DNA from: a virus
Length of the DNA stretch: 45,186 nt
IMG/VR virus record: IMGVR_UViG_3300036945_001118
Span: 1-45,186 of that record
Strand: one strand, 5' to 3'
Translations under genes and position numbers: made by a program
In this document: positions 7,169 to 45,186 of the stretch, piece by piece
Layout of the letters: the number at the start of each line of letters is the position of its first letter
Numbering within the stretch: position 1 is the first letter of the stretch
Notes under the pieces: model-generated
Told to the model about the DNA's origin: nothing
Database searches by the model: none
The model's input: the letters and a program-made list of their open reading frames with translations, nothing else

Positions 7169-7169
7169 T

Positions 7170-16037: not shown

Positions 16038-16038
16038 A

Positions 16039-17599: not shown

Positions 17600-17628
17600 A
17601 TATTATATTTATTGGGATTGATTGTCAA
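17600..17628 (-). promoter_or_regulatory. Possible promoter abutting the TauD-like gene
   Basis: Minus strand: TTGACA (17623-17628), 17 bases, TAATAT (17600-17605). The -10 touches the ATG, so transcription would start inside the annotated frame; either the true start codon is further in or this is chance. Confidence 0.35.
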
Positions 17629-25122: not shown

Positions 25123-25163
25123 GCAAATAGTTATCGCCGGCAGACAACTGCGTACATTCTAAA

Positions 25164-25595: not shown

Positions 25596-25689
25596 GGGAG
25601 GATTCCTCATAAACAGCTCTAGTGAGTACTGTACTTAGTAGCTAGATGCAAATCTTAAACTACCTCCCATTGGCGTATTAAGTGGTACT

Positions 25690-26604: not shown

Positions 26605-27587
26605 TTTGCAATCCAATCCTTATATTTTTCATAACTTGGCTCCAATGCTTTGAGCCATTCGGTAATCTTTGGTCTACCCTTAACTGCCATAATAATCTTT
26701 GGTTTGGCAAGATCTGCACCGTGTACAAATGCTCCGTTGTTAAACACAAATGTATTTGTGTCTGGCGGCAGATCTACGTATGTGCGTTTTTCACGTGGTA
26801 CACGATTTGCACTAACTCCATAAGCAGCACCTGTGCGTACAGTAATCGGACGCGGATCATAATCTTCTGTTCGATCAGGCCACTGACTAATCCAAAAAGT
26901 TGGACCATCGTTTGTGTCCCATATCATGATTCTCAAACTGTCCGGCCAAGGATAGATAACTGCATCTGGGTCAATGTGCGGGGTCACTTCGTTGATGTTT
27001 GACCAAAGCACAACTTTTTCAATGCTGTGGAATGGCAAGCATGAAAATATTTGCTCAAACATTTTAGGAAAGTGTTTGGTCCAATCGTCAACCACAGTAT
27101 TCTTGTAATTGAATTTGGTGTGATCTACTTCGGGGTGCAAGAAGCAGCAAAGGCCTTTCCAAAACTGAGTTTCTGTTTGTCCACGTGTAATGTCAGCTTG
27201 CTTTTCATTCCATAACTTCCAAAACAATTCCCAGTCATCAGGTTCAATCTTGGGAATGTCCAACGGCACCCAGGAAATTGGCGTCCACTTTTCATCTACC
27301 AATGCAATCTCTGGCCATGCTGCTGGACTAATGCGGCTTAGAAAATCAACGTTGGTGTTGGGCATGTGCATTACACGAGCACCAAGTCTGACCCACTCGT
27401 TGTATGGGCTACGTCCATTTAGTAACTGCATTGCAGAGTGCATATCAAGGACTACCCATTCGCCTGGGTTAAGCTCTGTTGGCAATGGTTGTCCTGCTGG
27501 CAATGTTAGTGTTTTACCAGTTAGTCTGCTGTTACGCCAGTTTACATGGGCCAGTATTGTTACTTTTGGAGGGATAATGGGATTCAT
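26601..27587 (-). CDS. Iron/2OG-type oxygenase-like protein, 328 aa (no. 7 of 8)
   Basis: EVTPHIDPDAVI (His204, Asp206), SLRIMIWDTNDGPTFWIS and NNGAFVHGADLAKPKI (His289) with a following Lys in place of the usual Arg suggest an AspH/2OG fold. A 150-residue N-terminal region with many Trp and Pro is specific to this gene. Co-transcribed and overlapping with the gene at 25690. Confidence 0.72.
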   Translation of the reverse strand: MNPIIPPKVTILAHVNWRNSRLTGKTLTLPAGQPLPTELNPGEWVVLDMHSAMQLLNGRSPYNEWVRLGARVMHMPNTNVDFLSRISPAAWPEIALVDEKWTPISWVPLDIPKIEPDDWELFWKLWNEKQADITRGQTETQFWKGLCCFLHPEVDHTKFNYKNTVVDDWTKHFPKMFEQIFSCLPFHSIEKVVLWSNINEVTPHIDPDAVIYPWPDSLRIMIWDTNDGPTFWISQWPDRTEDYDPRPITVRTGAAYGVSANRVPREKRTYVDLPPDTNTFVFNNGAFVHGADLAKPKIIMAVKGRPKITEWLKALEPSYEKYKDWIAK

Positions 27588-27617: not shown

Positions 27618-28223
27618 TTATTTCATTAGTGCAAGTTGTATTTCTTTCCAGTTACTGAATCGACGAACTGAAATATCCGAGAATCCTCGGTTCCACGGTT
27701 GGTCAATGAGGTAAGTGGCATGCCCGGCTTGTGCAGAGGCTCTTGCAGTTGATTCAGTTGAAGTAACGCACACTGCTGCATCGTGTTCGCGCAAGGCTGA
27801 ATATAAATTTGTAGTGCGGTTAACAACATACAGTTCATCAAACACACCCGGGAACAGAAGTTCTATATTGGCACGTCGAAGTATTGCTCTATTCATATCG
27901 CTGGATGATTTACTGTATCCAACAATGTGCCAACCCCGATCTGCTAGATCACTTAGTACCGACTCTGCGCCCAGCAACGGGTACAATGCACCCCACTGCC
28001 ACGAGTACTCGCAAAACTCTTTCATCCATAAGTCGGCCAATTCTTCAGGAACATTGAGCCATGCACCCAGATGTTCTCGACTTGTTATTGTATTGCCTGC
28101 AACATTTTGCAAACGACCAAGAGACGAAAGCCACTTGACGAATGCAGTTAATGTATCAACACAAGTATCATCAAGATCGACGATTAACTTGTTTTCAAAC
28201 TCTTCATCCTGCAAGCTCAACAC
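27618..28223 (-). CDS. HAD-superfamily phosphatase, 5'(3')-deoxynucleotidase-like
   Basis: LIVDLDDTCVD (Asp16, Asp18) is HAD motif I; VGYSKSSSDMNRA gives motif II with Ser instead of Thr, and late GHATYLIDQPWNRGF contains the acidic motif IV in the spot usual for NT5C-type deoxynucleotidases. It probably dephosphorylates nucleotides or a sugar phosphate. The start is a GTG at 28223, overlapping the ClpS stop by about 20 bases, with GGAG four bases before it. Confidence 0.8.
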   Translation of the reverse strand: MLSLQDEEFENKLIVDLDDTCVDTLTAFVKWLSSLGRLQNVAGNTITSREHLGAWLNVPEELADLWMKEFCEYSWQWGALYPLLGAESVLSDLADRGWHIVGYSKSSSDMNRAILRRANIELLFPGVFDELYVVNRTTNLYSALREHDAAVCVTSTESTARASAQAGHATYLIDQPWNRGFSDISVRRFSNWKEIQLALMK

Positions 28224-28515
28224 TCACTCCAAGCGGGTGTCCATTGGTGCGAGCAATTTGCGTAGACTCCATGGCCTTTTGTTCAGCAACTTCATATGTA
28301 TACACACCAGCAGTACCTTTTCCATTTTGGTGAACCTGCATCATAATTTGCGTTGCGGCATCTTGTGTGTGATGGAAAATTACTTTAAGTAATTCGATAA
28401 CAAACTCCATTGGTGTAGAATTGTCATTTAAAATTACTACGCGGAAACGTTCTGGTTCCTTTGCATTTGTAATGTTATCAGTTTTCTTGATAGTCTGAAT
28501 TGCTGTTTCTGCCAT
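28204..28515 (-). CDS. clpS: ClpS-like N-degron adaptor
   Basis: Start at 28515 (MAETAIQTIKKTDN) gives 103 residues. The ClpS fold is clear: VVILNDNSTPMEFVIELL, MQVHQNGKGTAGVYTYEVAE, MESTQIARTNGHPL. In bacterial ClpS the loop reads NDD-x-TPMEFV; here the second Asp is Asn, which lies by the N-degron pocket. Bacterial ClpS hands substrates to ClpA-ClpP. It sits directly downstream of hsp20 and near a phage clpX; no clpA or clpP is seen. Confidence 0.92.
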   Translation of the reverse strand: MAETAIQTIKKTDNITNAKEPERFRVVILNDNSTPMEFVIELLKVIFHHTQDAATQIMMQVHQNGKGTAGVYTYEVAEQKAMESTQIARTNGHPLGVSVELAG

Positions 28516-28548
28516 TTGTGTTTCCAGTATGTTTAACAATGATATTTA

Positions 28549-28578
28549 GTTGGGACAACGTGGTAGAGTCGCCCCAAC
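28549..28578 (-). other. Strong stem-loop between hsp20 and clpS
   Basis: GTTGGGGCGAC pairs with GTTGTCCCAAC (11 bp with two G-U pairs) around an 8-base loop. No T-run follows, so it may be an RNA-stability or attenuation element between the genes. Confidence 0.5.
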
Positions 28579-28585
28579 ATTTATA

Positions 28586-29017
28586 TTATCCCTTAATTAA
28601 AGGAATCTTTTTTGGTTTTGCTTCTTCGGGTACAATCTCATTAAGATCGATAATCAGCATGCCATCTTTGAGCTCGGCTGTTTTAATCTCAATGCGATCA
28701 CCTAATACAAACTCACGTTTAAAATTGCGAGTAGCAATTCCGCGATGCAAGTAGTTTGCTTTATCTTCTTCGGTCTTTTGACCAGTTACAATAAGTGCAT
28801 TTTCTTGCTGAGTGATTTCGATATCCCGGTCAGTAAAACCTGCAACCGCAAGAGTAATGCGGTAGTCATGCTCTGCAAGTTTTTCTAAGTTGAAAGGGGG
28901 ATATCCACCGTTGCTGGGATTACTAACTTGCATTAGTCGATCCAATTCGTTAAACAAATGATCGAACCCAACACCAAATCTCTGGTATGGCTGTAGATTA
29001 TTACAATGATTAGACAT
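28586..29017 (-). CDS. hsp20: Small heat-shock protein (Hsp20/IbpA family)
   Basis: 143 residues. The alpha-crystallin domain covers about residues 42-130: YRITLAVAGFTDRDIEI, ALIVTGQKTEED, LHRGIATRNFKREFVLGD and the A-x-x-x-x-G-x-L motif in AELKDGMLIIDL, with the I-x-I anchor KKIPLI at the C-terminus. It holds unfolded proteins; phages of this type often carry hsp20. GGAG precedes the ATG. Own promoter at 29103; the leader holds two small stem-loops. Confidence 0.95.
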   Translation of the reverse strand: MSNHCNNLQPYQRFGVGFDHLFNELDRLMQVSNPSNGGYPPFNLEKLAEHDYRITLAVAGFTDRDIEITQQENALIVTGQKTEEDKANYLHRGIATRNFKREFVLGDRIEIKTAELKDGMLIIDLNEIVPEEAKPKKIPLIKG

Positions 29018-29047
29018 AATATAGTCTCCTTATAGCGAGTCTAAATT

Positions 29048-29095
29048 TGTGATCCTATTGGCATCACATTGTGCGTTAGCCCTCTTGGCACTAAC
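29048..29095 (-). other. Structured hsp20 leader
   Basis: TGTGAT/ATCACA (29048-29053 with 29063-29068) and GTTAG/CTAAC plus GGC/GCC (29075-29095) form two hairpins between the promoter and the ribosome-binding site. RNA thermometers are known in bacterial hsp20 leaders, but no FourU or ROSE anti-Shine-Dalgarno is visible here. Confidence 0.4.
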
Positions 29096-29102
29096 ATACA
29101 CA

Positions 29103-29131
29103 ATTATATTTATTTCTTATCAGTTTGTCAA
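29103..29131 (-). promoter_or_regulatory. Consensus sigma-70 promoter for hsp20
   Basis: Minus strand: TTGACA (29126-29131), 17 bases, TATAAT (29103-29108). Not a sigma-32 heat-shock promoter. Confidence 0.85.
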
Positions 29132-29139
29132 GTAGTATT

Positions 29140-29412
29140 TTAATACATTCGACGCTTCACACCATCGCGTGGAGCACGTTTACCGCTTAGTTCGTCAGTT
29201 TCAACTTGCTTTTGGTGACGGCGCTTTGCTTTATTTGCAGCAACACGGCGTTCAGTTGTTGGCTTAACATATTCCATGCGCTCACGGACCTCGTCCATTT
29301 TGCCAGAATCTTGGATCTTATTTTTAAATTTGCGTAAAGCTCTTTCAACTTGATCATCCTTGACCATTACGCTCGTGCCCCTTACTTTTGGGCGGTGGGT
29401 ATCTCTGCTCAT
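29140..29412 (-). CDS. rpsU: Ribosomal protein bS21 homologue
   Basis: 90 residues with the bS21 core (VERALRKFKNKIQDSGKMDE, VRERMEYVKPTTERR) and a very basic tail (NKAKRRHQKQ, KRAPRDGVKRRMY). Bacterial bS21 has about 70 residues, so this copy has extra tail and a short N-terminal extension. bS21 sits at the mRNA exit next to the anti-Shine-Dalgarno; phage copies are thought to bias the ribosome to phage messages. It lies three bases after clpX. Confidence 0.93.
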   Translation of the reverse strand: MSRDTHRPKVRGTSVMVKDDQVERALRKFKNKIQDSGKMDEVRERMEYVKPTTERRVAANKAKRRHQKQVETDELSGKRAPRDGVKRRMY

Positions 29413-29415
29413 ATT

Positions 29416-30642
29416 TTATGCAACTATTTCTAGGTTAGTATAAATTCTAACAACGCTATGGTCTTCCACAGATTGTTCAGTAATTATAACTTTACTTAAT
29501 CCTTCTTTGGCCAATTCAGGTAGATTAAACTGTATATCAAGTAAAATTTGTTCAATAATATTTCTAAGTCCACGGGCACCCGTTTTCTTAAGAACACTAA
29601 GGTTAGCAATGGCCACGCATGCTTCTGGTGTAAATTCCAGTTCAACATGATCAAGCGCAAATATTGCTTTGTATTCCTTTTCAATGCTGTCGTCTGGTTC
29701 TGTCATAATATGAACCAAGTCTTCGACTGTTAAAGTATCAAGTGCAGCAATAACTGGAATACGTCCCATGAATTCAGGAATCATTCCAAACTTGACAAAG
29801 TCTTCTGGCTCTACTTCTGCAAGCCATTGATCAGTTTTGACATCAGCACGTTCTACTTCAGCACCAAAGCCGATTTTGGCACCGCCGCTCATTCGCTTCT
29901 TAACTTGCTCATCTAAACCAACAAATGCGCCGCCAAGGATAAACAAAATGTTTTTGGTGTTTACTGTGTTGGTATCATGTCCGGGATGCTTGCGTCCACC
30001 GTTTTGTGGCACACGGCACTCGGTACCTTCAATCAGCTTTAATAAGGCCTGCTGTACACCTTCGCCTGACACGTCACGGGTAATGCTAGAGCTTTCGCTT
30101 TTGCGACCCTTCTTATCAATTTCGTCAATATAAACAATACCAGTCTCAGCTTTTTTAATGTCTCCACCAGCTGACTGTAACAGCCTATGGATAACACTTT
30201 CCACATCATCGCCTACATATCCACTTTCGGTCAATGTGGTAGCATCAGCAATTGCAAACGGAACATTGAGCTTTTCTGCTAATTTTTTAGCAAGCAGTGT
30301 TTTGCCAGACCCAGTTGGCCCAATGAGTAGCACATTACTTTTCTTAATAAGATCGCCTTTGCCTTGACTTAGTCGTTTGTAGTGATTGCGAACTGCAACA
30401 CTTAAACTACGCTTGGCAAGATCCTGCCCAATTACAAATCGATCCAAGAAAGATTTGATTTCACTTGGTGTAGTTGTGTCTGTAAACTCAGATGGTAGAT
30501 CTTTACCATCTGATGCCATTGCATCTAAACAAAGATGAATACATTCATTGCAAATGTATGCTTTGTCGCCGGCAATAAGTGCCTTGACTTCATCTCTATG
30601 CTTATTGCAGAAGCTACAAGACAGTTGCTGTGCTTTATCCAA
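29416..30642 (-). CDS. clpX: ClpX unfoldase
   Basis: I assign a TTG start at 30642 (408 residues): GGAG lies seven bases upstream, and the zinc domain begins at once (Cys9, 12, 31, 34). All ClpX motifs are present: Walker A GPTGSGKT (108-115), pore loop GYVG (141-144), Walker B IVYIDEID (169-176), RKH loop (217-219), IGF ClpP-docking loop (257-259) and sensor 2 GARGLR (355-360). It can thus probably dock host ClpP and feed it substrates chosen by the phage. The start overlaps the upstream stop (TTGGATAA). The ClpS gene lies 900 bases further on. Confidence 0.95.
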
Positions 30643-31054
30643 GGGTAAGCTCCATGATTGCAAGTAGATGGTCAAAGTCTTCAAAATGTGGAATGTCAAC
30701 AGCATTAAGCAATGCAACAAATTCATCATTCCCGGGTTTAACATGGAACACAATTGGTTGATCTACTTTGGCCATTGCCAGAGCCATACGTATTTCATGT
30801 TCTGAGCAGCTTGCCATGTCAATGAAAATCATACTGCAATTATCAACAACATGCCAATACCAGACCCATGCTTTAGGATCTTTAACTCCGGCGTCATTGG
30901 CATAAAATGTCAACTGGTTTTGGATGCCTTTTTCCAAGATAGAAATTACTGCATCTTGCCAAACTTTATCATTGCTGATTAATGCAAAGCCCAGGCCGCC
31001 GCTTGGCATATGTAAAGTAGGCGGACTTACAACGTAAACACTTGAATCACTCAA
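30635..31054 (-). CDS. Unknown phage protein, 139 aa
   Basis: [20 protein letters not shown] is followed by an alternating strand/helix pattern ([38 protein letters not shown]) suggestive of a small alpha/beta Rossmann-like fold, but without a nucleotide loop. It is coupled to clpX, which starts inside its stop. Similar short proteins occur in aquatic phages; function unknown. Confidence 0.65.
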
Positions 31055-31063
31055 AATAGACCT

Positions 31064-32425
31064 TTAGTTAGTATCATCACGCTTTGGATAGCTTACATTA
31101 AACCATCCTCTGCTTCGTTTTTGTTTGGCAATGTCTTCTGCACTTGCCTTATATATTTTATCTAAATTCTCAGCAGCTTGTTGCTCAGAATGCACTGGAG
31201 TAGACCACGCTTCACCTGGTGTACCAGGTGGTGCAAAGTCATCAGGAGGAGTAATGTAGTCGCCTGGTCGTTCAATATTGTCAAAGTCTTCGGCTACTTC
31301 TTCAACAACTTCTTCAACTGCTTCTTCAACTGCTTCGTCGACTACTTCTTCAACAGTGTCCTCGGGCAGTATAATTGTTGCGCCACCGATTGTTCCTGGC
31401 ATATCTAATATTACTGGCTCTCCCACTGCTTCCATTGTGGTGTCTGGTTGAACACTGGGCTCAAGTAATGTTGCATCATCTGAAGGTGCTTCTTGCTGCT
31501 CTGTTGCTTCAGCAACCACTGGCAAGACTTCTTCGTCAGGTACAGTTTCAATTTCTTTAACATCAGTTTGGACTCCTTCTGATTGTGCGACAGTGGGTTG
31601 CTCAGTTTCCCGAATCCTTACTGGGCTGTCGCCCTCCGCTTCATCTTGCTTACGGAACCATTGGAAGCTGTACTGGCTAGCCAACAATAGTATAACTGCA
31701 AGAGGGTCAAATACTGCTACAATAACAATGATTACCCATGTCACTGCTTTTTCCAACACGTTGGTATTGGGATTATCCCCATACACAAAGGCAGCAATGT
31801 ATTTTATCGGACCAACTTCCGCTTCAACCTTTCGAACCTCAGCGGCAATGGGCGCCCGTTCTTCGCTAACGGCAGTAATAACTTTCTGTTCGGCTTGGAT
31901 GTCAGACTGAAGGCGGGCACGTTCTTTTTGTTGTGAGCGTCTAAGCCCAACAGCTTTGTCAGCACCCGTTTCTGAACTGCTTCTTGCCATGACTTGGTCC
32001 ACAGCTTCATCCATCTGTTTAAGCGCCTTGCGGTTAGCATCAATATTTTCCTTTGCTGTTTTAATCTTGTCATCGTACACTGCAATCTTGCTCATAACGT
32101 CACCACTAACTAGACTTTGGTCACTGTGTGCTTTGCTCAAGAAGCCAAAGATACCCATGCTGGTGATAATCATCAAGATACCGACTGCAACGGTCATGTA
32201 TGTTCTAATAAAAACAGGGGCACGTTGCCAATTTAGCTTTAACCACATAGTGGCAATCAGTTTACTAACCTCCAATGCCACACCCATAACAACAATAGGT
32301 ACAACTGCGGCTGAGAAAATACTAACAAGTCCGGCAACTGAATAATAAACTGCGACTGCGCTAATGCTTAGTCCGCTAATCAGCGCCAAGTAAGCAACAA
32401 TTATATCTGTTCGTGTAATTTTCAT
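31064..32425 (-). CDS. Large membrane protein with coiled coil and acidic tail, 453 aa
   Basis: Start at 32425 (MKITRTDIIVAYLALISGLS), one base overlapping the upstream stop (TAATG). Four TM helices near residues 8-30, 33-58, 72-96 and 227-251; between TM3 and TM4 is a soluble coiled coil (110-200). The 200-residue C-terminal tail is acidic and repetitive (VEEVVDEAVEEAVEEVVEE) and ends with a basic patch. The shape resembles DUF4407-like phage membrane proteins. Which face of the membrane the tail occupies is unknown. Confidence 0.8.
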   Translation of the reverse strand: MKITRTDIIVAYLALISGLSISAVAVYYSVAGLVSIFSAAVVPIVVMGVALEVSKLIATMWLKLNWQRAPVFIRTYMTVAVGILMIITSMGIFGFLSKAHSDQSLVSGDVMSKIAVYDDKIKTAKENIDANRKALKQMDEAVDQVMARSSSETGADKAVGLRRSQQKERARLQSDIQAEQKVITAVSEERAPIAAEVRKVEAEVGPIKYIAAFVYGDNPNTNVLEKAVTWVIIVIVAVFDPLAVILLLASQYSFQWFRKQDEAEGDSPVRIRETEQPTVAQSEGVQTDVKEIETVPDEEVLPVVAEATEQQEAPSDDATLLEPSVQPDTTMEAVGEPVILDMPGTIGGATIILPEDTVEEVVDEAVEEAVEEVVEEVAEDFDNIERPGDYITPPDDFAPPGTPGEAWSTPVHSEQQAAENLDKIYKASAEDIAKQKRSRGWFNVSYPKRDDTN

Positions 32426-33159
32426 TATAGGTGGGTCTTCGCTGTAAAGCAATGCGGCAAGTCGTCAAACAACGGAGCTTCAATCAGCTTGCCATTTAAG
32501 TCATAATCATACGTGTGATTTTTTCCTTGCGGGTTTGGGACCTTGGCATACGGATTATAAAGTTCGCACATACGATCATAATAGTTTTGTGGCATTATAT
32601 CAATCACCAGGTGAGTGCGCCACGTATCGCCGTAGTTTACTGCTGTATGGATAATCTTGTTATTCAATTCCCATACTTCGCCTTCGTTGATATGATCTCT
32701 CTTACCACCATTATTTAAATCATAACTGTGATGATATAACCAGCACTCAGTATTAGTGCTGATTGCAATGTTGTAGCGGCGTGCATATCGTTGATTGATA
32801 CGTGTATCTGTATGTAATACAGTATCGCCTTCGCGTGGGCGCATTCTTGCAATATCTGCTTGCACAATCACTGGATTTTCAATGCCTGTTAAACTTGCCA
32901 AATATTCACATTGTGGTTTAAGAATGTTTTCCCACATGTCCCAAATGCCCGGCGGATATCCTTTTGAAATTTCTGCAAAGCCTTTGCTTCGTTCCTGATT
33001 GACAGGCAAGTATATCAGATGGGTACCATCACCACGAATGTAACGCTTTGGCTGCTCAACCGGATCCCAATCCCAGTTGGCTTCCCAATCGCGATACTCA
33101 TTAAAAATTGCCGAATCAAACTCAGCAATTTTTCTAGCAGTTAAACCTTGTTCGTACAT
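32425..33159 (-). CDS. AspH-type iron oxygenase, 244 aa (no. 8 of 8)
   Basis: VLHTDTRINQRYARRYNIAI (His116, Asp118) and ELNNKIIHTAVNYGDTWRTH (His171, Arg181) followed by LVIDIMP repeat the pattern of the gene at 15441 closely (ELNNRVMHSA, FRTHLILDLMP), so the two are probably recent paralogues. A YHHSYDLNNGGKRDH loop is specific here. Overlaps both neighbours by one base. Confidence 0.85.
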   Translation of the reverse strand: MYEQGLTARKIAEFDSAIFNEYRDWEANWDWDPVEQPKRYIRGDGTHLIYLPVNQERSKGFAEISKGYPPGIWDMWENILKPQCEYLASLTGIENPVIVQADIARMRPREGDTVLHTDTRINQRYARRYNIAISTNTECWLYHHSYDLNNGGKRDHINEGEVWELNNKIIHTAVNYGDTWRTHLVIDIMPQNYYDRMCELYNPYAKVPNPQGKNHTYDYDLNGKLIEAPLFDDLPHCFTAKTHL

Positions 33160-36053: not shown

Positions 36054-36066
36054 CAATACTTATATC
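36054..36066 (-). promoter_or_regulatory. ATAAGTATTG motif upstream of the secreted nuclease
   Basis: Minus strand GATATAAGTATTG. TATAAGTA is one base from the T4 late box TATAAATA. Copies at 14847-14857 (+) and 38547-38557 (-) also precede starts. Late-promoter function is inference. Confidence 0.4.
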
Positions 36067-37522
36067 AGTAAACAGGTATGTTATGTAAACTGTTGAATTT
36101 TAATGCATCTGCCCAGGTATTCACCAATGGCTCGCCCTTGATGTTTAAGCTGGTGTTCATTAGTATAGGGCAACCTGATCTCTTATGCCATTGTTCTAAT
36201 ATTGAACGGAACATTGGATTGTCTTGTGCTGTTACAGTTTGCACTCTACTGGAGTTGTCAACATGGCAAATGCCCGGCAGTGTGTCAGGTGTTGTACATT
36301 GTGCTACAAACTGCATATAAGGACTTTGATCAACTGGCATATCAAAGTATGTGCCAGCATGTTCTGCTAATATTGCAGGCGCAAAGGGACGAAATTGCTC
36401 TCGCTTTTTGATTGTGTTCATTCTGGCTTTTGCATCCGGGCCTCTCGGATCGCATAATAAACTGCGGTTTCCCAGTGAACGTGGACCAAACTCTGCACGA
36501 CCATTGGCCAATGCTACAACATGGCCTGCTTCCAAATCATCAACAATTGCTTCAACATCTACATCTCGTTTGATGTCTGTGCCTAGATAAATGGTTTCCC
36601 ATTTTAAATGACGTTGTGTATATGCTGCAACTGCTCCAATCGCGCTGCCGCTGTCTCCGGGATTGGGCATGATCCAGAATTTATCGAAATAGTTCTCACG
36701 AGCAATCAGTGCATTGGCCACGCAATTTAATGCAACACCGCCCATGAATACCAAGTTATCAGATTCAATTTCAGTTGACATCCAGTCAATTGTTTCTGTC
36801 AAGTACATTTCAATTATGTATTGCACACTGGCTGCAATGTCAAACTTGTTTGCAGTGGGATTTTTAGGTGTCCACCATCGACATCCGCGATGCAAATTGT
36901 GCTTTAACTTAAAGTCAGGTGGTGCCCATTTACTAAAAAATGTTTCTAGTAATTCTTCTGCATACACAGGAGTTCCGTATGCGGCCATGCCCATGAGAAT
37001 ATATTCTTCTTCATTGGGCTTTAGTCCCAGCCATTGTGTCATTGCAGTGTAAAACAGTCCCACGCTGTTGGGATACTTCTTACTCCACTTGCGTTTCATG
37101 TTGGCACCTTGTGCATGCCAAATGCTAACTGTGTCCCATTCACCGATGGCATCTACTACTAAAATTGCAGCATCTTCAAATCCACTGGTATAGTATCCTG
37201 CGGCAGCATGACTTTGATGATGCCCAACAGTATGAAATGGCAATCCGTTTAATCCAACAGTTCGCAATGCATCACGCGGTTCAACGTTCCATGGAGATTC
37301 GCCGCTGTACAGCTTTCTTAAAGTTTTGGCCAGGGGCTTTTCAAACCACACAACTTCAGTTGGATCGCCATACTGTCGCATGTCTGCAATCATGTCATGG
37401 TTCAGCAGAGTATCATTTTTAACTCTACTGTAACGTTCTGCATGAGCAGCCCAGACTATTCGATCACCGTCAATTAATGCCAAACTGGCGTCATGATTTT
37501 GTGCTGTAATACCTAGTATCAT
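36065..37522 (-). CDS. NodU/CmcH/TobZ-family carbamoyltransferase
   Basis: 485 residues. N-terminal ASKHA-type half with ILGITAQNHDASLALI, the metal-binding VGHHQSHAAAGYY (His101, 102, 105) and GVALNCVANALI; C-terminal half with GRAEFGPRSLGNRS and PFAPAI and LMNTSLNIKGEPLV, the full pattern of O-carbamoyltransferases, which transfer carbamoyl from carbamoyl phosphate (via carbamoyl-AMP) to a hydroxyl group. Substrates in the family are sugars and antibiotics; in some phages a hydroxymethylated base. In this operon a sugar or peptide-linked hydroxyl, or a phage-made base, are all possible. Confidence 0.93.
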   Translation of the reverse strand: MILGITAQNHDASLALIDGDRIVWAAHAERYSRVKNDTLLNHDMIADMRQYGDPTEVVWFEKPLAKTLRKLYSGESPWNVEPRDALRTVGLNGLPFHTVGHHQSHAAAGYYTSGFEDAAILVVDAIGEWDTVSIWHAQGANMKRKWSKKYPNSVGLFYTAMTQWLGLKPNEEEYILMGMAAYGTPVYAEELLETFFSKWAPPDFKLKHNLHRGCRWWTPKNPTANKFDIAASVQYIIEMYLTETIDWMSTEIESDNLVFMGGVALNCVANALIARENYFDKFWIMPNPGDSGSAIGAVAAYTQRHLKWETIYLGTDIKRDVDVEAIVDDLEAGHVVALANGRAEFGPRSLGNRSLLCDPRGPDAKARMNTIKKREQFRPFAPAILAEHAGTYFDMPVDQSPYMQFVAQCTTPDTLPGICHVDNSSRVQTVTAQDNPMFRSILEQWHKRSGCPILMNTSLNIKGEPLVNTWADALKFNSLHNIPVY

Positions 37523-37532
37523 TTTAATATTC

Positions 37533-38417
37533 TTAACGCTTATTTCGTATTGTGTTGCCAGGAATTTCTTGCCCCACGATAAAATCTTCTCTGTGTGCTA
37601 GAATGTTGTAAATGGCCGACGGGTCTTTGAGATCGAACGAAGCAGTTGGAATTTCAGCTAGTTGCCCGGCTGTTGCATCATTGATTGTCCATTGTACAAA
37701 TTTGGCCAATTCCATATTGTTATGTTTGGAAAGGTGATTCTGTATATTGTTGCCATGATCACTTCCTCCCCAATTCTCCAATGTACCACGCTCTGCTGCT
37801 GCAATTGATAAAAGAGATGTTGTAACCGGGACTGAATTTGGCTTAGCCATTTTTTCAAAGTAAAACCGCTGGTGCTTAAACGGCATCCTGCCCATATCAT
37901 TGTCAAATCCAAATAAATGAATAACCTTTTTAAAATTTACTGTTAATTCATTTAGCTCTTTGAGCCATGCCAAAAAAGCAAACCTATAAAACTCATGATC
38001 AAACAGTGCGCTGCTATAAAATGTTTTGGCCAGATCAAATAACGCTCCACTTGGGTCCTTGAAATACAATTCGTTCTGTGCTGGATTATTACGATCAGCT
38101 TTGAAGACTTGTGGAGTTACTGCAACATCATTTAGATGCGGAAGCCGTGCGTATTGAGTATGCACAAATATCAGAACAGTATTTTCAACATGTTTCCAGT
38201 CTGACATATGATCCATAAACCATCGTCGTTGATGCCAAAAACTTTGCCCTGGAAAGCTTAAACCAATCAGCTGCCCTGAGTTGTTTGCCTCAATGAGGTT
38301 TACCCACGACCAGTCAAACGAAGGCATTCCTGGTATGCGATTGCGCCGGTTACCGGCAAAGCTGTCGCCAATGACACAAATATATTCTTCATTGGTTTTG
38401 CCTAGCTTGCTATACAT
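37533..38417 (-). CDS. SGNH-hydrolase-like protein, 294 aa
   Basis: VIGDSFAGNRRN (G-D-S, block I) and a C-terminal SDHGNNIQNHLSKHNN region with the D-x-x-H type pair fit an SGNH/GDSL esterase or acetyltransferase fold. Start at 38417 is coupled to the 37-residue gene upstream (TAA-T-ATG); the longer TTG frame overlaps that gene. Like the C-terminal half of the gene at 39700, it may remove or add acyl groups on sugars. Confidence 0.72.
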   Translation of the reverse strand: MYSKLGKTNEEYICVIGDSFAGNRRNRIPGMPSFDWSWVNLIEANNSGQLIGLSFPGQSFWHQRRWFMDHMSDWKHVENTVLIFVHTQYARLPHLNDVAVTPQVFKADRNNPAQNELYFKDPSGALFDLAKTFYSSALFDHEFYRFAFLAWLKELNELTVNFKKVIHLFGFDNDMGRMPFKHQRFYFEKMAKPNSVPVTTSLLSIAAAERGTLENWGGSDHGNNIQNHLSKHNNMELAKFVQWTINDATAGQLAEIPTASFDLKDPSAIYNILAHREDFIVGQEIPGNTIRNKR

Positions 38418-38418
38418 A

Positions 38419-38532
38419 TTAATAGATAAAAGGGTCTCGTTTACGCAATTCAGCAATGCGTTTTTTTAGCTGGCGCTGAGCCTGGAACTTGCGATAAGGT
38501 GCAAGCAAGAAGTTTAACAGTCGTGAAATCAT
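38419..38532 (-). CDS. Small basic protein, 37 aa
   Basis: The frame reads MISRLLNFLLAPYRKFQAQR then QLKKRIAELRKRDPFIY. AAGGA lies five bases before the ATG and an ATAAGTATTG motif just upstream. An amphipathic, very basic helix ending in KRDPFIY is a pattern I recall from other phages. Function unknown. Confidence 0.65.
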   Translation of the reverse strand: MISRLLNFLLAPYRKFQAQRQLKKRIAELRKRDPFIY

Positions 38533-38546
38533 ACAGTTCCTTAAAG

Positions 38547-38557
38547 CAATACTTATC
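38547..38557 (-). promoter_or_regulatory. GATAAGTATTG motif upstream of the 37-residue gene
   Basis: Minus strand GATAAGTATTG, 15 bases before the ATG and overlapping the end of the upstream radical SAM gene. Third copy of the motif. Confidence 0.35.
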
Positions 38558-39707
38558 CAGGAAACTGTTGGATAATTTCTGGCCATAAGTCAGCAAACAA
38601 ATACTTCTTATCGTTTAACTGTTTTACTTCTAGTGTGTCAAGCCACTCATCCAATTGCGGTCTAGTCACATATCCAGTTTTGTCGTTGAGTCTTAGTTCC
38701 AACTGCGATCTGATGTTGATTAATGCACTCATATCATAGCCGCTGCTTTCATACTTGCTGATACATCGATTCAATTCATCAAATGCCTTTGCCTTCAATG
38801 CAGGAGGTAATTTGAAAACGTTCAGTGCATGTATATTTTGCAATGCAGTCCAGTATACTTCGTTAAAGTATCCTTCACTGATGATAAAGTCATAATAATT
38901 ACACAGATCAAATGCAGAGTATGTGCAATACAGCGGATGTGCATTTATTATAGACACACCTTGTTGTTTGAGATATCTTAGATTGTCCACAAACGTAGAC
39001 CAACTTGCTCCATGTCTTACGTATTCAAATTTTGGCCCAACAGTATCAAAGCTGATGCCCCACTGTGCATTGGGGTTGGCTATCAACTTGGGTGCAATTG
39101 TATTATTGGGGAGGTCAATGCTGAGATTTGTAAGAATATAGTAATTCTTTTTTGGTAGTAAATCTATTAAGCGATGATTTTGCTTTTGCAATAATGGCTC
39201 TCCGCCCAATAGATTCACAGTTTCAATGCTGTCAACTGAATTGGTATTTTCTGCAATAAGTGCAAACAAGCTGTCTTCAACATCGGCTTTGTTTGCATTA
39301 ATCTTGATTCCTTTGATTGCGCTCCATTTACTGCTGAAATATTCATAGCAGTACGTGCAGGCCAAGTTGCAAAGGTTGCTCCATCGTAAATCTAACTTGT
39401 GCAACTCAAATGTTTCTTTGGTAGCAGATTGAAATTCGTCAAATTTTGATAAAGAAAATTGATCAATACGTTCACTTCTTGCACCCATTGATTCTAGCTT
39501 TTGGCACTGCTCACACTGTGGATGCCACTGTTCGTTGACAATGGCTTCTCTAATGCTTTGAGCATTAGGGCTTTGCAGTATTTCGTGGATACTTTGTTTA
39601 TTAATGTCGCCAATGTCTTCCTTGGCGCTGCAACAGGTCTTGACGCCGCCGTCGGCTCCTAGAAATACAGTGTTGAATGGATAAGCGCAAAATGTTTCTT
39701 TATTCAT
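38553..39707 (-). CDS. Radical SAM enzyme with N-terminal SPASM/twitch-like cysteines
   Basis: 384 residues. The N-terminal part carries Cys7, Cys25-Cys26 and Cys65-x2-Cys68 (CEQC), usually the auxiliary-cluster segment of twitch-domain enzymes. The radical SAM core follows with C113-x3-C117-x2-C120 (CNLACTYC), LLGGEPL and GISFDTVG. The C-terminal 120 residues are helical. Such enzymes act on peptides or sugars. It overlaps the GT/SGNH gene by eight bases. Confidence 0.88.
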   Translation of the reverse strand: MNKETFCAYPFNTVFLGADGGVKTCCSAKEDIGDINKQSIHEILQSPNAQSIREAIVNEQWHPQCEQCQKLESMGARSERIDQFSLSKFDEFQSATKETFELHKLDLRWSNLCNLACTYCYEYFSSKWSAIKGIKINANKADVEDSLFALIAENTNSVDSIETVNLLGGEPLLQKQNHRLIDLLPKKNYYILTNLSIDLPNNTIAPKLIANPNAQWGISFDTVGPKFEYVRHGASWSTFVDNLRYLKQQGVSIINAHPLYCTYSAFDLCNYYDFIISEGYFNEVYWTALQNIHALNVFKLPPALKAKAFDELNRCISKYESSGYDMSALINIRSQLELRLNDKTGYVTRPQLDEWLDTLEVKQLNDKKYLFADLWPEIIQQFPG

Positions 39708-41469
39708 TGTTTAATAACCTGTCTACTACAATGTCTGCCAGCTGTTCGTGATATCTAATGTGCGGATGGTTAAATCCATGCACCTGTGATTGGTTCCCCC
39801 AATTTACCAAGTTGCCAAAACAAACATCATGATCAATTATGCTGGTAAATTTGTTAATGGATTCGATCATGCTAATGAATCGCTTATTAAGGTGTTTGTC
39901 AGACACAAATCCAATATAGTCATTTACTGTTTGGTGCAAAGGTTGCACCAGTATACGTCCATTGAAGCGCGAGCTAAGGAGGTCAAGATACTTTAATGTA
40001 TTAAAGTAATTGTACAATGTAAAGTAATCGTCTGCAACATGCTCAACAAAGTCATTGTGAAACTTTTCGGTTGGCCACAATCCTGGGTATCCAATAATTG
40101 GAATCGCAGCATGCGGCCATCCTCCTCTTTCTTCTTTGCTAAAATACATCCAGCGATCCATACTGGTAGCTCCAACCAGTATTAAATCGTTATCTGATAT
40201 AACTCCGTCGGCAAAGTCTCTTTCTATCAAATACACAATACTTTGCATACTACCACCTGACAGACCTTTGTTAAGGAATTTGACATCCAGACGCTTTGCA
40301 ACTTGTGCAGCCCAACTCAAATGGCTTTGTGCTTCCATTGCTTCCTGACTACCTAATCTGGGATTTTTATTATAAAAGTCTGTGCGCTTGTCATTGTAAC
40401 TGCGCTTGATCTTGTCAAGCTCAACTGCGGTGATTGGTTCATGCCAAAATAAATGGTCAGCTAATTCACTGCCAGCGGTGTGGCTACAACCGTACGCTAC
40501 AATACGATTAAATGCAATAGTTTGTTGATTTCGTTTGATAAATCTAAGAGGTGCCATATCCCATTCCTTGTGTAAGATTTCAATTACTGCTGGACGCATC
40601 CTATACAAGCACTGCTTGAATGTTTCCCTGAAGAAATTAATTTTCCAGTCACCTACTAAACCTTTTGTGCGTAGGTACTCGCCCAATAAGTCGGCATATT
40701 CTGGAGTGGTATGAAAACGATGCATTGTGATGATGTGTGCATTTTCATCATCGGCCCGTTTGAACTGTTCGACCAGCTGCTCTTTCGTCAAACGATCACT
40801 CTTGTCCAGTCCACCATATTGACCAAACGCCCAGTTTTCTGTTGTATCGGTCCATGATTCTCTGGTCTGCGCAAACACCCAATATAAAGCTGCTTCGCTG
40901 GCTTTGATAATTGGTTGCATTGAAATGTCATAATTCACTGACACGAGTTTATCTAAAAGCGCTCTTACAATGTTGTTGCGCCAAACAAACGGAGTAATAG
41001 GGAACACTTCGGTGGCGCTAGCCACACCCAGTATACGACATGCTTCAGTGTGCGTTGGATCAATTTCAGCAGGCGAACTTCGTGTAAAGATGTTTACTTT
41101 TAGTTTTCCATCATTGAAAAAATCATCCAGTCCCAAATTACTAATTAAAAAGTTCTTGCAATCTAATACAACGCTGTAATCTGCTGTACTTTTGCTTGCA
41201 GCCAATAATTTGAATACCTGCTGTCTATGCCAACCATCTGTTGCTGCAATTAATTCGCCAACCTTGATGTTGAGATTCCAGCCAGTCATTACAGGAACAA
41301 TATGCTCATTGATCCAATTTACAACATGCTGATAATCTACACGATCTTCAACAACAATAGTCCATTGCTTTTGGCTCGTCCAAAACTTCTCCAAGCTTAG
41401 AGCATGATAGTATAGCGGTGCAAGGTCGCCGCTATACGCTATGGTGATTACTTCTGCGGTATATTGCAT
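39700..41469 (-). CDS. Glycosyltransferase-like (DUF6492) / SGNH fusion, 589 aa
   Basis: Residues 1 to about 310 look like the DUF6492 glycosyltransferase-like family: ITIAYSGDLAPLYYHALSLE, GWHRQQVFKLLAA and YSVVLDCKNFLI (D-x-K/N pair near the metal site). Residues about 330-589 are SGNH-like: IVAYGCSHTAGSEL (block I), GLSGGSMQS (block II) and HPHIRYHEQLAD (His at the end). A transferase plus an esterase or acetyltransferase in one chain suggests that a sugar is added and then decorated. It overlaps neighbours on both sides. Confidence 0.75.
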   Translation of the reverse strand: MQYTAEVITIAYSGDLAPLYYHALSLEKFWTSQKQWTIVVEDRVDYQHVVNWINEHIVPVMTGWNLNIKVGELIAATDGWHRQQVFKLLAASKSTADYSVVLDCKNFLISNLGLDDFFNDGKLKVNIFTRSSPAEIDPTHTEACRILGVASATEVFPITPFVWRNNIVRALLDKLVSVNYDISMQPIIKASEAALYWVFAQTRESWTDTTENWAFGQYGGLDKSDRLTKEQLVEQFKRADDENAHIITMHRFHTTPEYADLLGEYLRTKGLVGDWKINFFRETFKQCLYRMRPAVIEILHKEWDMAPLRFIKRNQQTIAFNRIVAYGCSHTAGSELADHLFWHEPITAVELDKIKRSYNDKRTDFYNKNPRLGSQEAMEAQSHLSWAAQVAKRLDVKFLNKGLSGGSMQSIVYLIERDFADGVISDNDLILVGATSMDRWMYFSKEERGGWPHAAIPIIGYPGLWPTEKFHNDFVEHVADDYFTLYNYFNTLKYLDLLSSRFNGRILVQPLHQTVNDYIGFVSDKHLNKRFISMIESINKFTSIIDHDVCFGNLVNWGNQSQVHGFNHPHIRYHEQLADIVVDRLLNNE

Positions 41470-42722
41470 GTTGCGTTTGCCACTGTACGATCATTGATTT
41501 CATGAGTAAAGATCCTGTCAATGCTGCTGTTTTGTCCGCATGTGTCTGCACAATAACTCAAACGTCCTTTTTCAACTTGATCAATAGACCATGTGTCTGC
41601 AAACACACGATCCAAGTGTTGTGCGTCTAGAATTTCTGCCAACGTATGCGTTTCTAAGCTAAAGTGTTCCCAGCCATAATCGTTCATATGATTGTGTAGC
41701 TGTAGTGTTCTAGTATCTGTGTATACACCGTTTAAGTGTGTGCCAATATAACAACAAGGCATTACTCGGCCAAAGTTATCCACAAAGATTTCTTTGCCGC
41801 CAGTCCAGGTTCGGCTCTTGCACTTGATTTCACAGGAATTATTTTTGGTGTTATCTTCTTTGTAAATGCGATCAGTGTAAACATTGGCCACTTCATCTTG
41901 GAATGCTTTAGAAATTTGCTTTGTTTCTTTTAGCTTACGATACTCATCTACACTAAAAGGATAAAATATTACTTCTTGCTCACCTTTTGGCTGTGCTAAG
42001 TTACGATTCTTTTCTTGTACAGGCGCTTCAATAATATAGTCAAGATTGCCATCCTTGTCCAGTACAGGCATCTTGGTCAAATATTCACCATTGTCAACGC
42101 CCAGTGCTTTCTTAGGAACAAACTCAGCAAACTTCATTTGTTCTGCCAAGGCCTGCGCCGCTTCAATTTGATGTTCGTTGTGACGGAAGATTAGATAGTC
42201 CCAGTTGGCAGACCCGCCTGCGTCAATAAACGACTTGACGTTTTCCATTAACACATTCCACTGTACATTTCTACGATAAAGGTGATTGGTGTCTTCTAAT
42301 CCGTCAATGCTAAATGTTATTTGCCAGTATGCTGGATTGTGCTGTCTAGGGAATCTGGCAAACAATGCGCCCATTTTTGCCCACCAATCAGCCCTGCGCA
42401 TACCACCGTTTGTATTCATGCGTACTGCTGTAGTTGAACTAACGCTGGCAATGTATTCACAAATTTCATAAGTGTCACGGGCAACACAAGGGTCGCCATG
42501 AACTCCGCAAAATAAGATCAGCTTGCAACGTTGTATAACTTCTGGTGGGAAATACTGCTTGAACTTGTCCAGTGTAATTTGTCCCACTTCGAGATCAGGT
42601 CTAGCGTGTGGACTGTTGTTGTGAAAGCGCACACACATTGGGCAAGCAGCGTTACAGGCATTGGTCAGCTCAATGTGCAGTTGTGCCAACTCTTCCATGT
42701 TCCAAAATGCATTATTTGCCAT
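41448..42722 (-). CDS. Radical SAM enzyme with C-terminal SPASM-like cysteines, 424 aa
   Basis: HIELTNACNAACPMCVRF has C23-x3-C27-x2-C30. A C-terminal cluster region reads CEIKCKSRTWTGGKEIFVDN and GRVMPCCYIGTH, then LSYCADTCGQN near residue 400. This is the peptide- or sugar-modifying SPASM type. Start overlaps the upstream gene by 11 bases. Confidence 0.9.
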   Translation of the reverse strand: MANNAFWNMEELAQLHIELTNACNAACPMCVRFHNNSPHARPDLEVGQITLDKFKQYFPPEVIQRCKLILFCGVHGDPCVARDTYEICEYIASVSSTTAVRMNTNGGMRRADWWAKMGALFARFPRQHNPAYWQITFSIDGLEDTNHLYRRNVQWNVLMENVKSFIDAGGSANWDYLIFRHNEHQIEAAQALAEQMKFAEFVPKKALGVDNGEYLTKMPVLDKDGNLDYIIEAPVQEKNRNLAQPKGEQEVIFYPFSVDEYRKLKETKQISKAFQDEVANVYTDRIYKEDNTKNNSCEIKCKSRTWTGGKEIFVDNFGRVMPCCYIGTHLNGVYTDTRTLQLHNHMNDYGWEHFSLETHTLAEILDAQHLDRVFADTWSIDQVEKGRLSYCADTCGQNSSIDRIFTHEINDRTVANATCNIPQK

Positions 42723-43947
42723 TATGAGCCTTTACTACCCGACCATATGCAGGGAATGTTTTAAAGAAGTCCTGTTTACGATAGTCATCGTGTGTTTTAA
42801 TGGTGGCCAAGAAGGTATCCCATTCTGAATCAGAACAAGGTGTACCATTTTCAATAAAGCCAATGATGCCGGGCAATTGATACCATGCATGTTCATAGTG
42901 CTTGGGAATGTTATGCAGTCGATCCAGCACTGCTTCTTTGATGTCTGCTGGCAAACTGCTCATGTTAAAGTGTGCAGGACGATGTACCAGATTCAAGTAC
43001 AGGCCAAAGTCTGTAAAGTTGTCATAGTAAGCATCGAGCGTTTCGGGCAAGTTGTAAATATTGATACTGCTTAATGTAATGCACCAGCTTAGACTTAAAT
43101 TGCCATGTTGCTTGGAAAACTCACTGGCTTTCTTCATGTTTTCCACAGCTTCTGTCCATACTGCTGGATAACGCATGTATTCAAACTGCTCGCCTGTACC
43201 GTCAATGCTAAAGCTCAGGTTAACGTGCTTGAAGTTTTTCCAAACTTCTGTTTCTTCTGGCCATGTTGTGCCATTGGTGTTGTAGTGTAGCTCAATGTCT
43301 TTGGCATAGCCGTTGTCTACACAAATCTTCAACACTTCCCACATCTTTTTGCTCAAGAATGGTTCGCCACCGTAAAAGTCAAACTGTTTGATCGTGCTTA
43401 GATTGTTTGCCAAGTCATCCCAGAACGGACTATCTTCATCGTACGTCTGATGATACTTTTTCATTTCAATTGCATAATCTTTGTAGGAGGTACGTGCTGT
43501 GTGATTTAGATCGTAGTCCTCTTTCATCCACAAACTGCTAATGGTAGGATGGCATGTACGGCACTTGATGTTGCAGGTATTGCCTAAATTTAATTCAAAC
43601 TTGGCCAGCCCGTTGAAGGGCTCTTGATTACCGTACTCTAAGCCATGAAAGTATTTTTCATTGTCACGCAGACGCTTGCTCTTGCGTCCGCCATCTTCTT
43701 CTTGCCAGCATTGATTGCAAGCACGATCACGTACACCTGCAGCCAAGTTGGATTTGATACCTTGTGCAATAGGATTGTTAAAGTTTTCGTTGATTGTTTT
43801 AGATCCCAAAAACCAAACACGTTCTTTACCCATGTAGTTGTAGGACTCATCGATCATGCAACACATTTTGCTAGAGCCGTCATTGTTGCCGCTCATGCCG
43901 TGCAGTGCATTTACGCACCAGCTATGTTCATTTTGTTGGTTCATCAT
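42712..43947 (-). CDS. Twitch-domain radical SAM enzyme, 411 aa
   Basis: N-terminal cysteines (Cys11, Cys29-Cys30, ACNQC at 77-80) precede C125-x3-C129-x2-C132 (CNIKCRTC), FYGGEPFLSKK and LSFSIDGTGE. Same layout as the protein at 43928, so the pair is probably duplicated. Overlaps the next gene by 20 bases. Substrate unknown. Confidence 0.9.
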   Translation of the reverse strand: MMNQQNEHSWCVNALHGMSGNNDGSSKMCCMIDESYNYMGKERVWFLGSKTINENFNNPIAQGIKSNLAAGVRDRACNQCWQEEDGGRKSKRLRDNEKYFHGLEYGNQEPFNGLAKFELNLGNTCNIKCRTCHPTISSLWMKEDYDLNHTARTSYKDYAIEMKKYHQTYDEDSPFWDDLANNLSTIKQFDFYGGEPFLSKKMWEVLKICVDNGYAKDIELHYNTNGTTWPEETEVWKNFKHVNLSFSIDGTGEQFEYMRYPAVWTEAVENMKKASEFSKQHGNLSLSWCITLSSINIYNLPETLDAYYDNFTDFGLYLNLVHRPAHFNMSSLPADIKEAVLDRLHNIPKHYEHAWYQLPGIIGFIENGTPCSDSEWDTFLATIKTHDDYRKQDFFKTFPAYGRVVKAHNGK

Positions 43948-45186
43948 AGTTCAAATATACCTGTTTGCATAGTGCATAAAATTCTTTGTATTCTGGGAAT
44001 AACTCTACTAAGTTAGTGCCCAATCGATTGTCGTTTTCATTGAAGAATGAGAAGAAATCTCTGCGGCCGGCTCTTAACTTATCATCACTGATGGGATGCT
44101 CTTTTAAGTAGGTGGTAACACGCTTGAACTTTTCATACTCAACACCAGTGAACCATTCTGGATTGTCTTTGATAAAATCCATATTGGCATCCATGTAAGG
44201 AATAAAGTCTGGTGTTAAAATCTTAATCATCCAGTGTGGCGGTTCTTTCAAGTAAGGGGTATCAAATGCAACTGCATCCTTACCAAACTCCTTGCGCCAT
44301 TCAATTACCTTTTCCAACAGCGCACGGAATGTTGCAACACATAACACGTTGAATGTACACATTAGGTTAATTGTAGCACCAGTTTTCATAACTGCTTTCA
44401 TGTTACGTTCCCAGTGAGCACAATCCATACCTGTTCGCATGTACTCGGCTTGCGGTCCCCATCCTTCAATTGACGTAAAGAAACTGAACTTGCGAATCTT
44501 CTTTTGTGCCAGCAAACTTTCTACACGTTCAATCAAACTGTCAACTTTGGCAAAGCTAACACCCAAGTTGCTGTTCAATGTGATTTCAAGCTGTGGTGCA
44601 GGTTCCTTTTCCAGCAAGTCAAAGAACTGCATGGCGCCTGGATTCATCAATGGCTCGCCACCTGTGATTCGAAGTGTATGCAAGTCGTTGCGTAGGCTTG
44701 GCCACCACTTCCAAAATGCTTCGATATAAGGATTCTCATCTTTGGGCCCGTAGTATGTGCCTTGCTTTAAGAATTCAATTCCATACTGATTGTATGTCAA
44801 GTCATGGTTGCCATATTTCTTTGTTTCTTCCATCCACATTGTGCTGGCTTGTGGGCCACAGTAGCCGCATCGATAGTTGCAATTGTTACCAAAGCTGACT
44901 TCCAAATAACGTGGATTGATAGGAGCGTCCCATGGCAGCTCTGCTAATTTTTCAATATGCGGTGCTGCAAAATCACTACTGCTATGAATCATTCTATCGC
45001 TGATATGGTCACCTGGCAAGTCTTCGATGTTCCAGCAGTAGTAGCATTCATCTGGGCGACCACCTTCTAACATGGTTTTACGCTGTTCTTTTTTCCATAG
45101 TGTGTTATGCAACGCACTTGGATCAGCTGCAATTTCATCCAATGGAATATGATGCGGGCGTGGGTGATAGCAACTGTGGTTGTCAC
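43928..45186 (-). CDS. Twitch-domain radical SAM enzyme, N-terminus outside the window
   Basis: The frame stays open to the window end: before DEIAADPS it reads DNHSCYHPRPHHIPL, typical of this family, so the apparent TTG start at 45142 is not real. Cysteines of the auxiliary segment appear in ECYYCW; the core is NCNYRCGYCGPQ with ITGGEPLMNPG and SIEGWG. At least 418 residues are visible. It closely parallels the protein at 42712 and the two may act in sequence or as a complex. Confidence 0.9.
   Translation of the reverse strand, partial: DNHSCYHPRPHHIPLDEIAADPSALHNTLWKKEQRKTMLEGGRPDECYYCWNIEDLPGDHISDRMIHSSSDFAAPHIEKLAELPWDAPINPRYLEVSFGNNCNYRCGYCGPQASTMWMEETKKYGNHDLTYNQYGIEFLKQGTYYGPKDENPYIEAFWKWWPSLRNDLHTLRITGGEPLMNPGAMQFFDLLEKEPAPQLEITLNSNLGVSFAKVDSLIERVESLLAQKKIRKFSFFTSIEGWGPQAEYMRTGMDCAHWERNMKAVMKTGATINLMCTFNVLCVATFRALLEKVIEWRKEFGKDAVAFDTPYLKEPPHWMIKILTPDFIPYMDANMDFIKDNPEWFTGVEYEKFKRVTTYLKEHPISDDKLRAGRRDFFSFFNENDNRLGTNLVELFPEYKEFYALCKQVYLNYDEPTK

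Follow-up and report, generated by a model that had tools for sequence, protein, structure and literature searches.

What would a virus build with radical S-adenosylmethionine (SAM) enzymes, a glycosyltransferase-like fusion protein and an O-carbamoyltransferase (CT) encoded almost end to end? The question is raised by IMG/VR virus record IMGVR_UViG_3300036945_001118, a linear fragment of 45186 bases from a bacterial virus sampled in an environmental metagenome, analysed as a whole (hereafter, the window). By inspection of open reading frames (ORFs), the minus-strand block at 36065-45186 holds eight genes, seven large frames and one tiny frame encoding a microprotein with a C-terminal DPFIY motif. 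This microprotein is probably a partner of the CT rather than a peptide to be modified, and we favour, at about even probability, the reading that the block is a phage cassette building and tailoring a sugar or glycan. The genes are as follows (rSAM, radical SAM enzyme; aa, amino acids):

36065..37522, minus strand: CT of the predicted NodU/TobZ type, 485 aa (PF16861, PF02543, phrog_1601)
37533..38417, minus strand: SGNH2, SGNH-like protein, 294 aa (GDS motif and C-terminal Asn-His; a TTG-started ORF reaches 38456)
38419..38532, minus strand: DPFIY microprotein, most likely 37 aa (ATG after TAAGGA; a 55-aa ORF extends to 38586)
38553..39707, minus strand: rSAM4, N-terminal SPASM/twitch radical SAM enzyme, 384 aa, CNLACTYC (PF04055, PF13186, NF033640)
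39700..41469, minus strand: DUF6492 glycosyltransferase-like/SGNH fusion, 589 aa (PF20102 and structural matches of the SGNH half)
41448..42722, minus strand: rSAM3, radical SAM enzyme of canonical order, 424 aa, CNAACPMC (weak PF04055 match and cysteine map)
42712..43947, minus strand: rSAM2, N-terminal twitch radical SAM enzyme, 411 aa, CNIKCRTC (NF033640)
43928..45184, minus strand: rSAM1, N-terminal twitch radical SAM enzyme, CNYRCGYC (NF033640; truncated by the window end)

From rSAM1 to the CT, the gaps between adjacent genes are -20, -11, -22, -8, +20, +1 and +10 nt. A preliminary description of the locus had reported a minus-strand run of overlapping or nearly touching genes, and indeed every gene that it named is an open frame at the position given, with profile support for most. 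Its tiny basic protein is likewise present, albeit most likely as the 37-aa product of 38419-38532 instead of the 55-aa ORF, because a Shine-Dalgarno-like TAAGGA precedes the ATG of the shorter frame.

The product of 36065..37522 matches PF16861 (E = 6.7e-54) and PF02543 (E = 1.3e-44), with both Carbam_trans_N and Carbam_trans_C present, as well as phrog_1601 (E = 1.1e-101), identifying it as a predicted O-carbamoyltransferase of the NodU/TobZ type. Residues H100, H101, H104 and D123 and a C-terminal Arg/Lys set, putatively the His/Asp set of the N-domain and the Arg/Lys set of the C-domain typical of the family, are unchanged in 24 homologues. Relatives with solved structures are the novobiocin CT (9s2t), GdmN and TobZ; of these, TobZ and the novobiocin enzyme act on a sugar and GdmN on a macrolactam.

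Complete homologues of the microprotein measure about 29-51 aa, and across 20 aligned sequences only the C-terminal DPFIY is invariant, often with one further residue after its Tyr. The microproteins matched no Pfam family, two of the 20 weakly matched the uncharacterised phrog_5469 in a PHROG scan (best E = 0.003), and a tblastn search of phage records returned nothing, probably because of low-complexity masking. Small ORFs whose tail reads P(F/Y/W)(I/V/L)Y were concentrated around CTs: in phage loci they made up 59 of 685 ORFs at most 1.2 kb from a CT versus 10 of 9145 elsewhere, and in bacterial CT loci 24 of 800 near the CT versus 6 of 6884 elsewhere. In a search of whole records for the DPFIY codon pattern, each of 25 records held a single match and a single CT, with two matches in total for the reversed control pattern. 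Among 49 further IMG/VR records chosen for a CT, 47 contained the pattern, with zero control matches; one of the 47 has it twice, the second match not being C-terminal, and one of the two records without it (L077) carries DPYIY, a variant invisible to the pattern search. CT copy number was counted in the first 25 records only. All of these records were selected by a CT or an rSAM2 relative, so that the frequency of DPFIY without a CT lies outside the counts, and some are near-duplicates of one another, so that the numbers are of records and not of independent events. In some records the two genes lie several to 20 kb apart, which argues that their pairing is more than adjacency. In isolate phages whose CTs are only distantly related (28-33% identity), the pattern search gave no C-terminal DPFIY; a match in HTVC008M was dismissed as chance, being antisense to annotated genes and not at a C-terminus.

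Small proteins also stand beside bacterial CTs, and SxtK, judging by its size, is probably DUF5989-like. In 15 putative DUF5989-like sequences from bacteria, the residues P, F and Y are invariant close to the C-terminus. Like the system of bacterial CT, DUF5989/SxtK (PF19451) and SxtJ, in which a NodU-type CT adjoins a protein of ~50 aa with a PF(I/V)Y C-terminus, the phage microprotein is small, ends in PF(I/V)Y and adjoins a CT; unlike DUF5989/SxtK, it has no hydrophobic segment, a basic helix-like stretch standing in its place. Membership of DUF5989 was not supported, since the PF19451 model gave no match to the phage peptides, albeit that control genomes gave no positive either. With hhalign, the tail alone of the phage profile aligned to the DUF5989-like profile (E = 4e-4, probability 35%). 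SxtI has been proposed to work together with SxtJ and SxtK (PMC2679770; system also described in PMC2684587).

We propose that the microprotein would serve as a dedicated partner of the CT, most likely as a small scaffold or as an anchor at the membrane surface; its DPFIY tail would dock on the CT or complete the enzyme, in a role comparable to that of DUF5989/SxtK beside bacterial CTs. A wider version, which we hold tentatively and at slightly less than even probability, is that a large clade of phage CTs has the microprotein as an obligate subunit, that its PFIY tail, which DUF5989/SxtK would share by descent or convergence, acts in docking or in the active site, and hence that such a protein is a general small-protein cofactor of the NodU/TobZ superfamily that has gone unrecognised. 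Membrane topology may speak against both versions: were DUF5989 membrane-spanning with its C-terminus outside, the PFIY tail could not reach a cytosolic CT, and because the DUF5989 tail might thus lie across the membrane from the CT, its likeness to that of the phage microprotein may be coincidence.

The radical SAM genes of the block number four, as the preliminary description had it, but they are not all of one type. Scored with NF033640, a profile of N-terminal-twitch radical SAM enzymes with a curated cut-off of 170 bits, rSAM2 (304 bits), rSAM1 (259 bits; 271 bits in a second scan) and rSAM4 (214 bits) all exceed the threshold, whereas rSAM3, with 49 bits, is not a member. Both rSAM1 and rSAM2 match PF04055, as does rSAM4 (E = 2.9e-11), which in addition matches the SPASM family PF13186 (E = 6.1e-11) at residues 7-69, i.e. 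N-terminally. Indeed, in rSAM1, rSAM2 and rSAM4 the auxiliary-cluster cysteines precede the CxxxCxxC motif, whereas rSAM3 carries its core cysteines (23/27/30) at the N-terminus and SPASM-like cysteines at 297-395, towards the C-terminus. Its PF04055 match (E = 2.5e-4) lies under the curated cut-off, and relatives of it occur in related arrays. In the twitch enzyme alignment C11, C30, C77 and C80 are nearly invariant. Compared against the Protein Data Bank, the N-terminal domain of the rSAM profile resembles the twitch of BtrN (7e-8) and the core resembles BlsE (6e-9) as well as SkfB (1e-9); the likeness to BtrN comes with a difference in order, the twitch being C-terminal in BtrN and N-terminal in rSAM1, rSAM2 and rSAM4. 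BtrN, a radical SAM dehydrogenase, is an aminocyclitol enzyme, BlsE a sugar-nucleoside enzyme and SkfB a peptide maturase.

The gene order is evidently kept beyond chance in two other viral contigs. Scans of viral contigs returned nine loci with rSAM2 and 80 with the CT as query, and the contigs G001 and G002 share the order rSAM-rSAM1-rSAM2-(SGNH)-rSAM3-GT/SGNH-rSAM4-(B12-like rSAM)-DPFIY-CT (GT, glycosyltransferase), near-identical to that of the window. They differ from it by an extra upstream rSAM (relatives of rSAM1 start ~38 residues further out, with one more rSAM ahead), by a B12-like radical SAM gene ahead of the microprotein gene, and by the lack of SGNH2 between microprotein and CT. 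The two close relatives of rSAM2 are 93% and 91% identical to it. Other relatives carry longer, reshuffled arrays. A twitch rSAM (at least one) was present in 43 of 86 CT loci and three or more in tandem in 15 of 86, while single records held up to 19 NF033640 matches. Several records contain the T4-type capsid family Gp23, among them one of 607 kb. This record (G018; 607744 bases) has 11 NF033640 matches and a CT near baseplate/tail-like genes. In another (G024:C1:60713-64835), twitch rSAM matches fall inside open frames of 818 aa and 1423 aa, which may encode fusions of several rSAMs. The gene-order search thus yielded near-identical order in two contigs and reshuffled versions in many others, and together with the tight co-linear packing it bears out the suggestion that one set of genes builds and decorates one product.

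The array enzymes, judged by their divergence, are old and distinct. Reducing 192 array members at 85% identity left 91, for 87 of which the nearest relative sits in another contig, the median best within-contig identity being 31%; tandem amplification was rejected on this ground. Average-linkage clustering sorted them into 43 groups whose order is partly conserved, as would be expected of a multi-step pathway. Among 50,697 isolate phage records, tblastn with rSAM2 matched two only, Vibrio phages K566 and K567; in the cultured K566, one GT4-like and two GT8 genes lie interspersed among the twitch rSAMs.

The remaining members of the block are an SGNH-like protein and a fusion. The fusion matches DUF6492 (PF20102, E = 1.8e-13), and its C-terminal half (residues ~307-589), for the most part modelled well, matches the carbohydrate esterase family 2 (CE2) structure 2w9x (E = 4e-4, probability 1.0), placing this half in the SGNH fold as far as the model goes. 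A viral-contig scan with the fusion as query returned no relative, although two exist (in G001 and G002). For SGNH2, the start is most likely the ATG at 38417, 1 nt after the microprotein gene. Its GDS motif and C-terminal Asn-His are invariant in ten homologues, several of which adjoin a CT, and these motifs are the main ground for calling it SGNH-like; scans with Pfam, PHROG and NCBIfam profiles gave no match, and the SGNH fold matches of its AlphaFold2 model (predicted local distance difference test score of 68) are weak and non-significant.

For the product, a sugar or glycan, a modified peptide and a modified base had been put forward, and the first is best supported. Glycan tailoring leads because of sugar-enzyme neighbours, the CE2-like SGNH half and loci in Actinomycetota metagenome-assembled genomes; the BtrN-like twitch also fits. 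A Pfam census of 106 neighbours in related loci recognised GT1, GT2, epimerase/GDP-mannose dehydratase, UDP-glucose dehydrogenase, methyltransferases and an aminotransferase. In three Actinomycetota genomes a twitch rSAM lies near a CT, accompanied, as read by eye, by an O-antigen-polymerase-like protein in two, a GT4-like gene in one and a methyltransferase-like gene in one. What the sequence itself shows is which genes are present, how they are ordered in relatives, that the core motifs are intact and that CT and microprotein pair nearly one to one; the sugar substrate, the order of steps, the location of the product and the action of the microprotein we infer. In a series of radical steps, the twitch/SPASM enzymes would oxidise, epimerise or deoxygenate a sugar, nucleotide sugar or glycan; a sugar would be transferred by the DUF6492-type domain, acyl groups would be added or removed by the SGNH domains, and the product would end up either on the tail of the virion or at the surface of the infected cell. 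Several observations pull the other way. Most of the 106 neighbours apparently had no Pfam match, and the census had no matched background; the window's own block contains no gene for nucleotide-sugar synthesis; the glycosyltransferase half of the fusion gave a low-confidence model with weak GT-A matches only; and rSAM-SPASM relatives act on peptides too, as the SkfB match indicates. Nor does the block of the window lineage stand beside tail genes, having a kinase-like/hydrolase-like group on one side and, on the other in G001, a DNA-ligase-like gene along with small genes.

Alternatively, the rSAMs and the CT might modify protein directly, altering side chains of a virion protein such as a tail fibre, to which glycosyl, acyl and carbamoyl groups would then be added. 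Neighbouring genes lend this some appeal: the G018 array adjoins genes of tail/baseplate-like type, and Gp23 and a portal-like protein are encoded in that region too; in L093 the gene overlapping that of the microprotein is tail-fibre-like, and fibre-like genes precede an SGNH-DPFIY-CT trio in L052 (both structural assignments made by eye). We nonetheless consider it unlikely, given that the block is not beside tail genes in the window and in G001 and that no target protein is conserved across arrays; sequence cannot separate it from a glycan on the virion. Several SPASM/twitch enzymes near a tiny conserved peptide, together with the profile match to the maturase SkfB, are also what a pathway akin to those for ribosomally synthesized and post-translationally modified peptides would offer, with the microprotein as a precursor modified by the rSAMs and then carbamoylated, and its C-terminal Ile-Tyr may be likened to the Val-Tyr end of the mycofactocin precursor MftA. 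This we regard as quite improbable: the microprotein follows the CT rather than the rSAMs, being present in records without a twitch rSAM match (G009, G013), while the DPFIY pattern was not found in the rSAM-bearing Vibrio phage K566; the residue frequently following the Tyr and the membrane-type DUF5989 protein as its counterpart beside bacterial CTs fit a precursor poorly, and neither a peptidase nor an exporter was recognised in the block. A modified peptide is accordingly less favoured, and the microprotein as its precursor disfavoured.

That the block is a loose collection of auxiliary metabolic genes from unrelated host pathways appears more improbable still. The reshuffling of cassettes between phages and the occurrence of CTs without twitch rSAMs nearby would suit it, but translational overlaps, near-identical order in two relatives and the recurrence, in unrelated phages, of twitch rSAMs together with glycosyltransferases tell against it. 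We give least credence to DNA base modification, in which the CT would carbamoylate 5-hydroxymethylcytosine with the rSAMs and 2-oxoglutarate (2OG) oxygenases as helpers. Phage CTs of the same superfamily do so (PMC8670742), and the window has several 2OG-oxygenase-like genes; however, the known 5-hydroxymethylcytosine-carbamoylating enzyme pairs with a dCMP hydroxymethylase (PMC8670742), and no gene of that type (an Asp177 thymidylate-synthase homologue) was found with the CTs in 24 records, the window and most relatives being fragments. A thymidylate-synthase homologue (PF00303) matched in 3 of the 24 only, 21 being without a match, and all three are of the Asn177 dUMP type (context PFNIASY). 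Moreover, CTs flanked by glycosyltransferases, the arrangement met here, were found in unmodified contigs (PMC8670742).

How far is such a cassette already known? In pelagimyophages, a hypervariable host-recognition region mixes tail fibres, GT8 and radical-SAM cassettes, for which the authors proposed modification of the host O-chain (PMC7029224). In both cases T4-like phages carry glycosyltransferase and radical-SAM cassettes in reshuffled form, but the CT, SGNH protein and microprotein are not described there, the text making no mention of carbamoyl, and the blocks of the window and G001 are not beside a tail-fibre module, tail-like neighbours occurring in G018 and L093. A T4-like environmental genome likewise has many radical SAM genes, 12 in all, which are treated under iron-sulphur cluster metabolism in a passage that describes no cassette (PMC5332604). 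In the open-licence literature we found no direct report of twitch-rSAM phage clusters, the exact gene set, N-twitch arrays or the DPFIY microprotein, nor one on DUF5989 or the PFIY tail. The earlier statement that no phage system with this exact set had been described therefore holds as far as searched, with these two precedents on record: the DPFIY microprotein and its pairing with the CT are new, and rSAM/GT8 phage cassettes were already known.

Elsewhere in the window, genes for a nicotinamide phosphoribosyltransferase (353-1753), a macro-domain-like protein (1832-2305) and a nucleotidyltransferase-NUDIX fusion (2702-3724) are clustered, a trio reminiscent of a phage NAD+ re-synthesis set. 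One of several related small proteins resembling tail-fibre/virion decoration proteins has collagen-like GPP repeats (6692-7189). Several oxygenase-like genes lie at 15441-17599, 24376-27587 and 32425-33159: Pfam supports a TauD type (16736-17599) and Asp/Asn hydroxylase types (15441-16037 and 32425-33159), and others were judged by eye, with no Pfam match. At 28204-31054, ClpS (PF02617, 7e-30) has as neighbours an Hsp20-like protein and a ClpX-like ATPase that bears a Cys motif at its N-terminus; ClpX-like and ClpS genes thus occur together in one phage. The T4-late-promoter-like NATAAATA has no match within 36065-45186, and each of its eight matches (in the window at 17613, 21314 and 29114, and in L103 and L104) precedes a gene start by 12-106 nt. 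In G017 (C1:63866-64903), a thymidylate synthase gene has an in-frame insertion in the middle of its family match.

CTs add their group to antibiotics, nodulation factors and phage DNA, and no function is known for the small proteins that accompany them; a partner of 30-45 aa that goes one-for-one with the CT offers a minimal, cloneable system for probing what such a partner does. Large uncultivated phages, in turn, hold whole sets of distinct twitch rSAMs, a type nearly absent from isolates by tblastn, which points to sugar or protein chemistry overlooked by culture collections, with Vibrio phages K566 and K567 as cultured relatives suited to testing.

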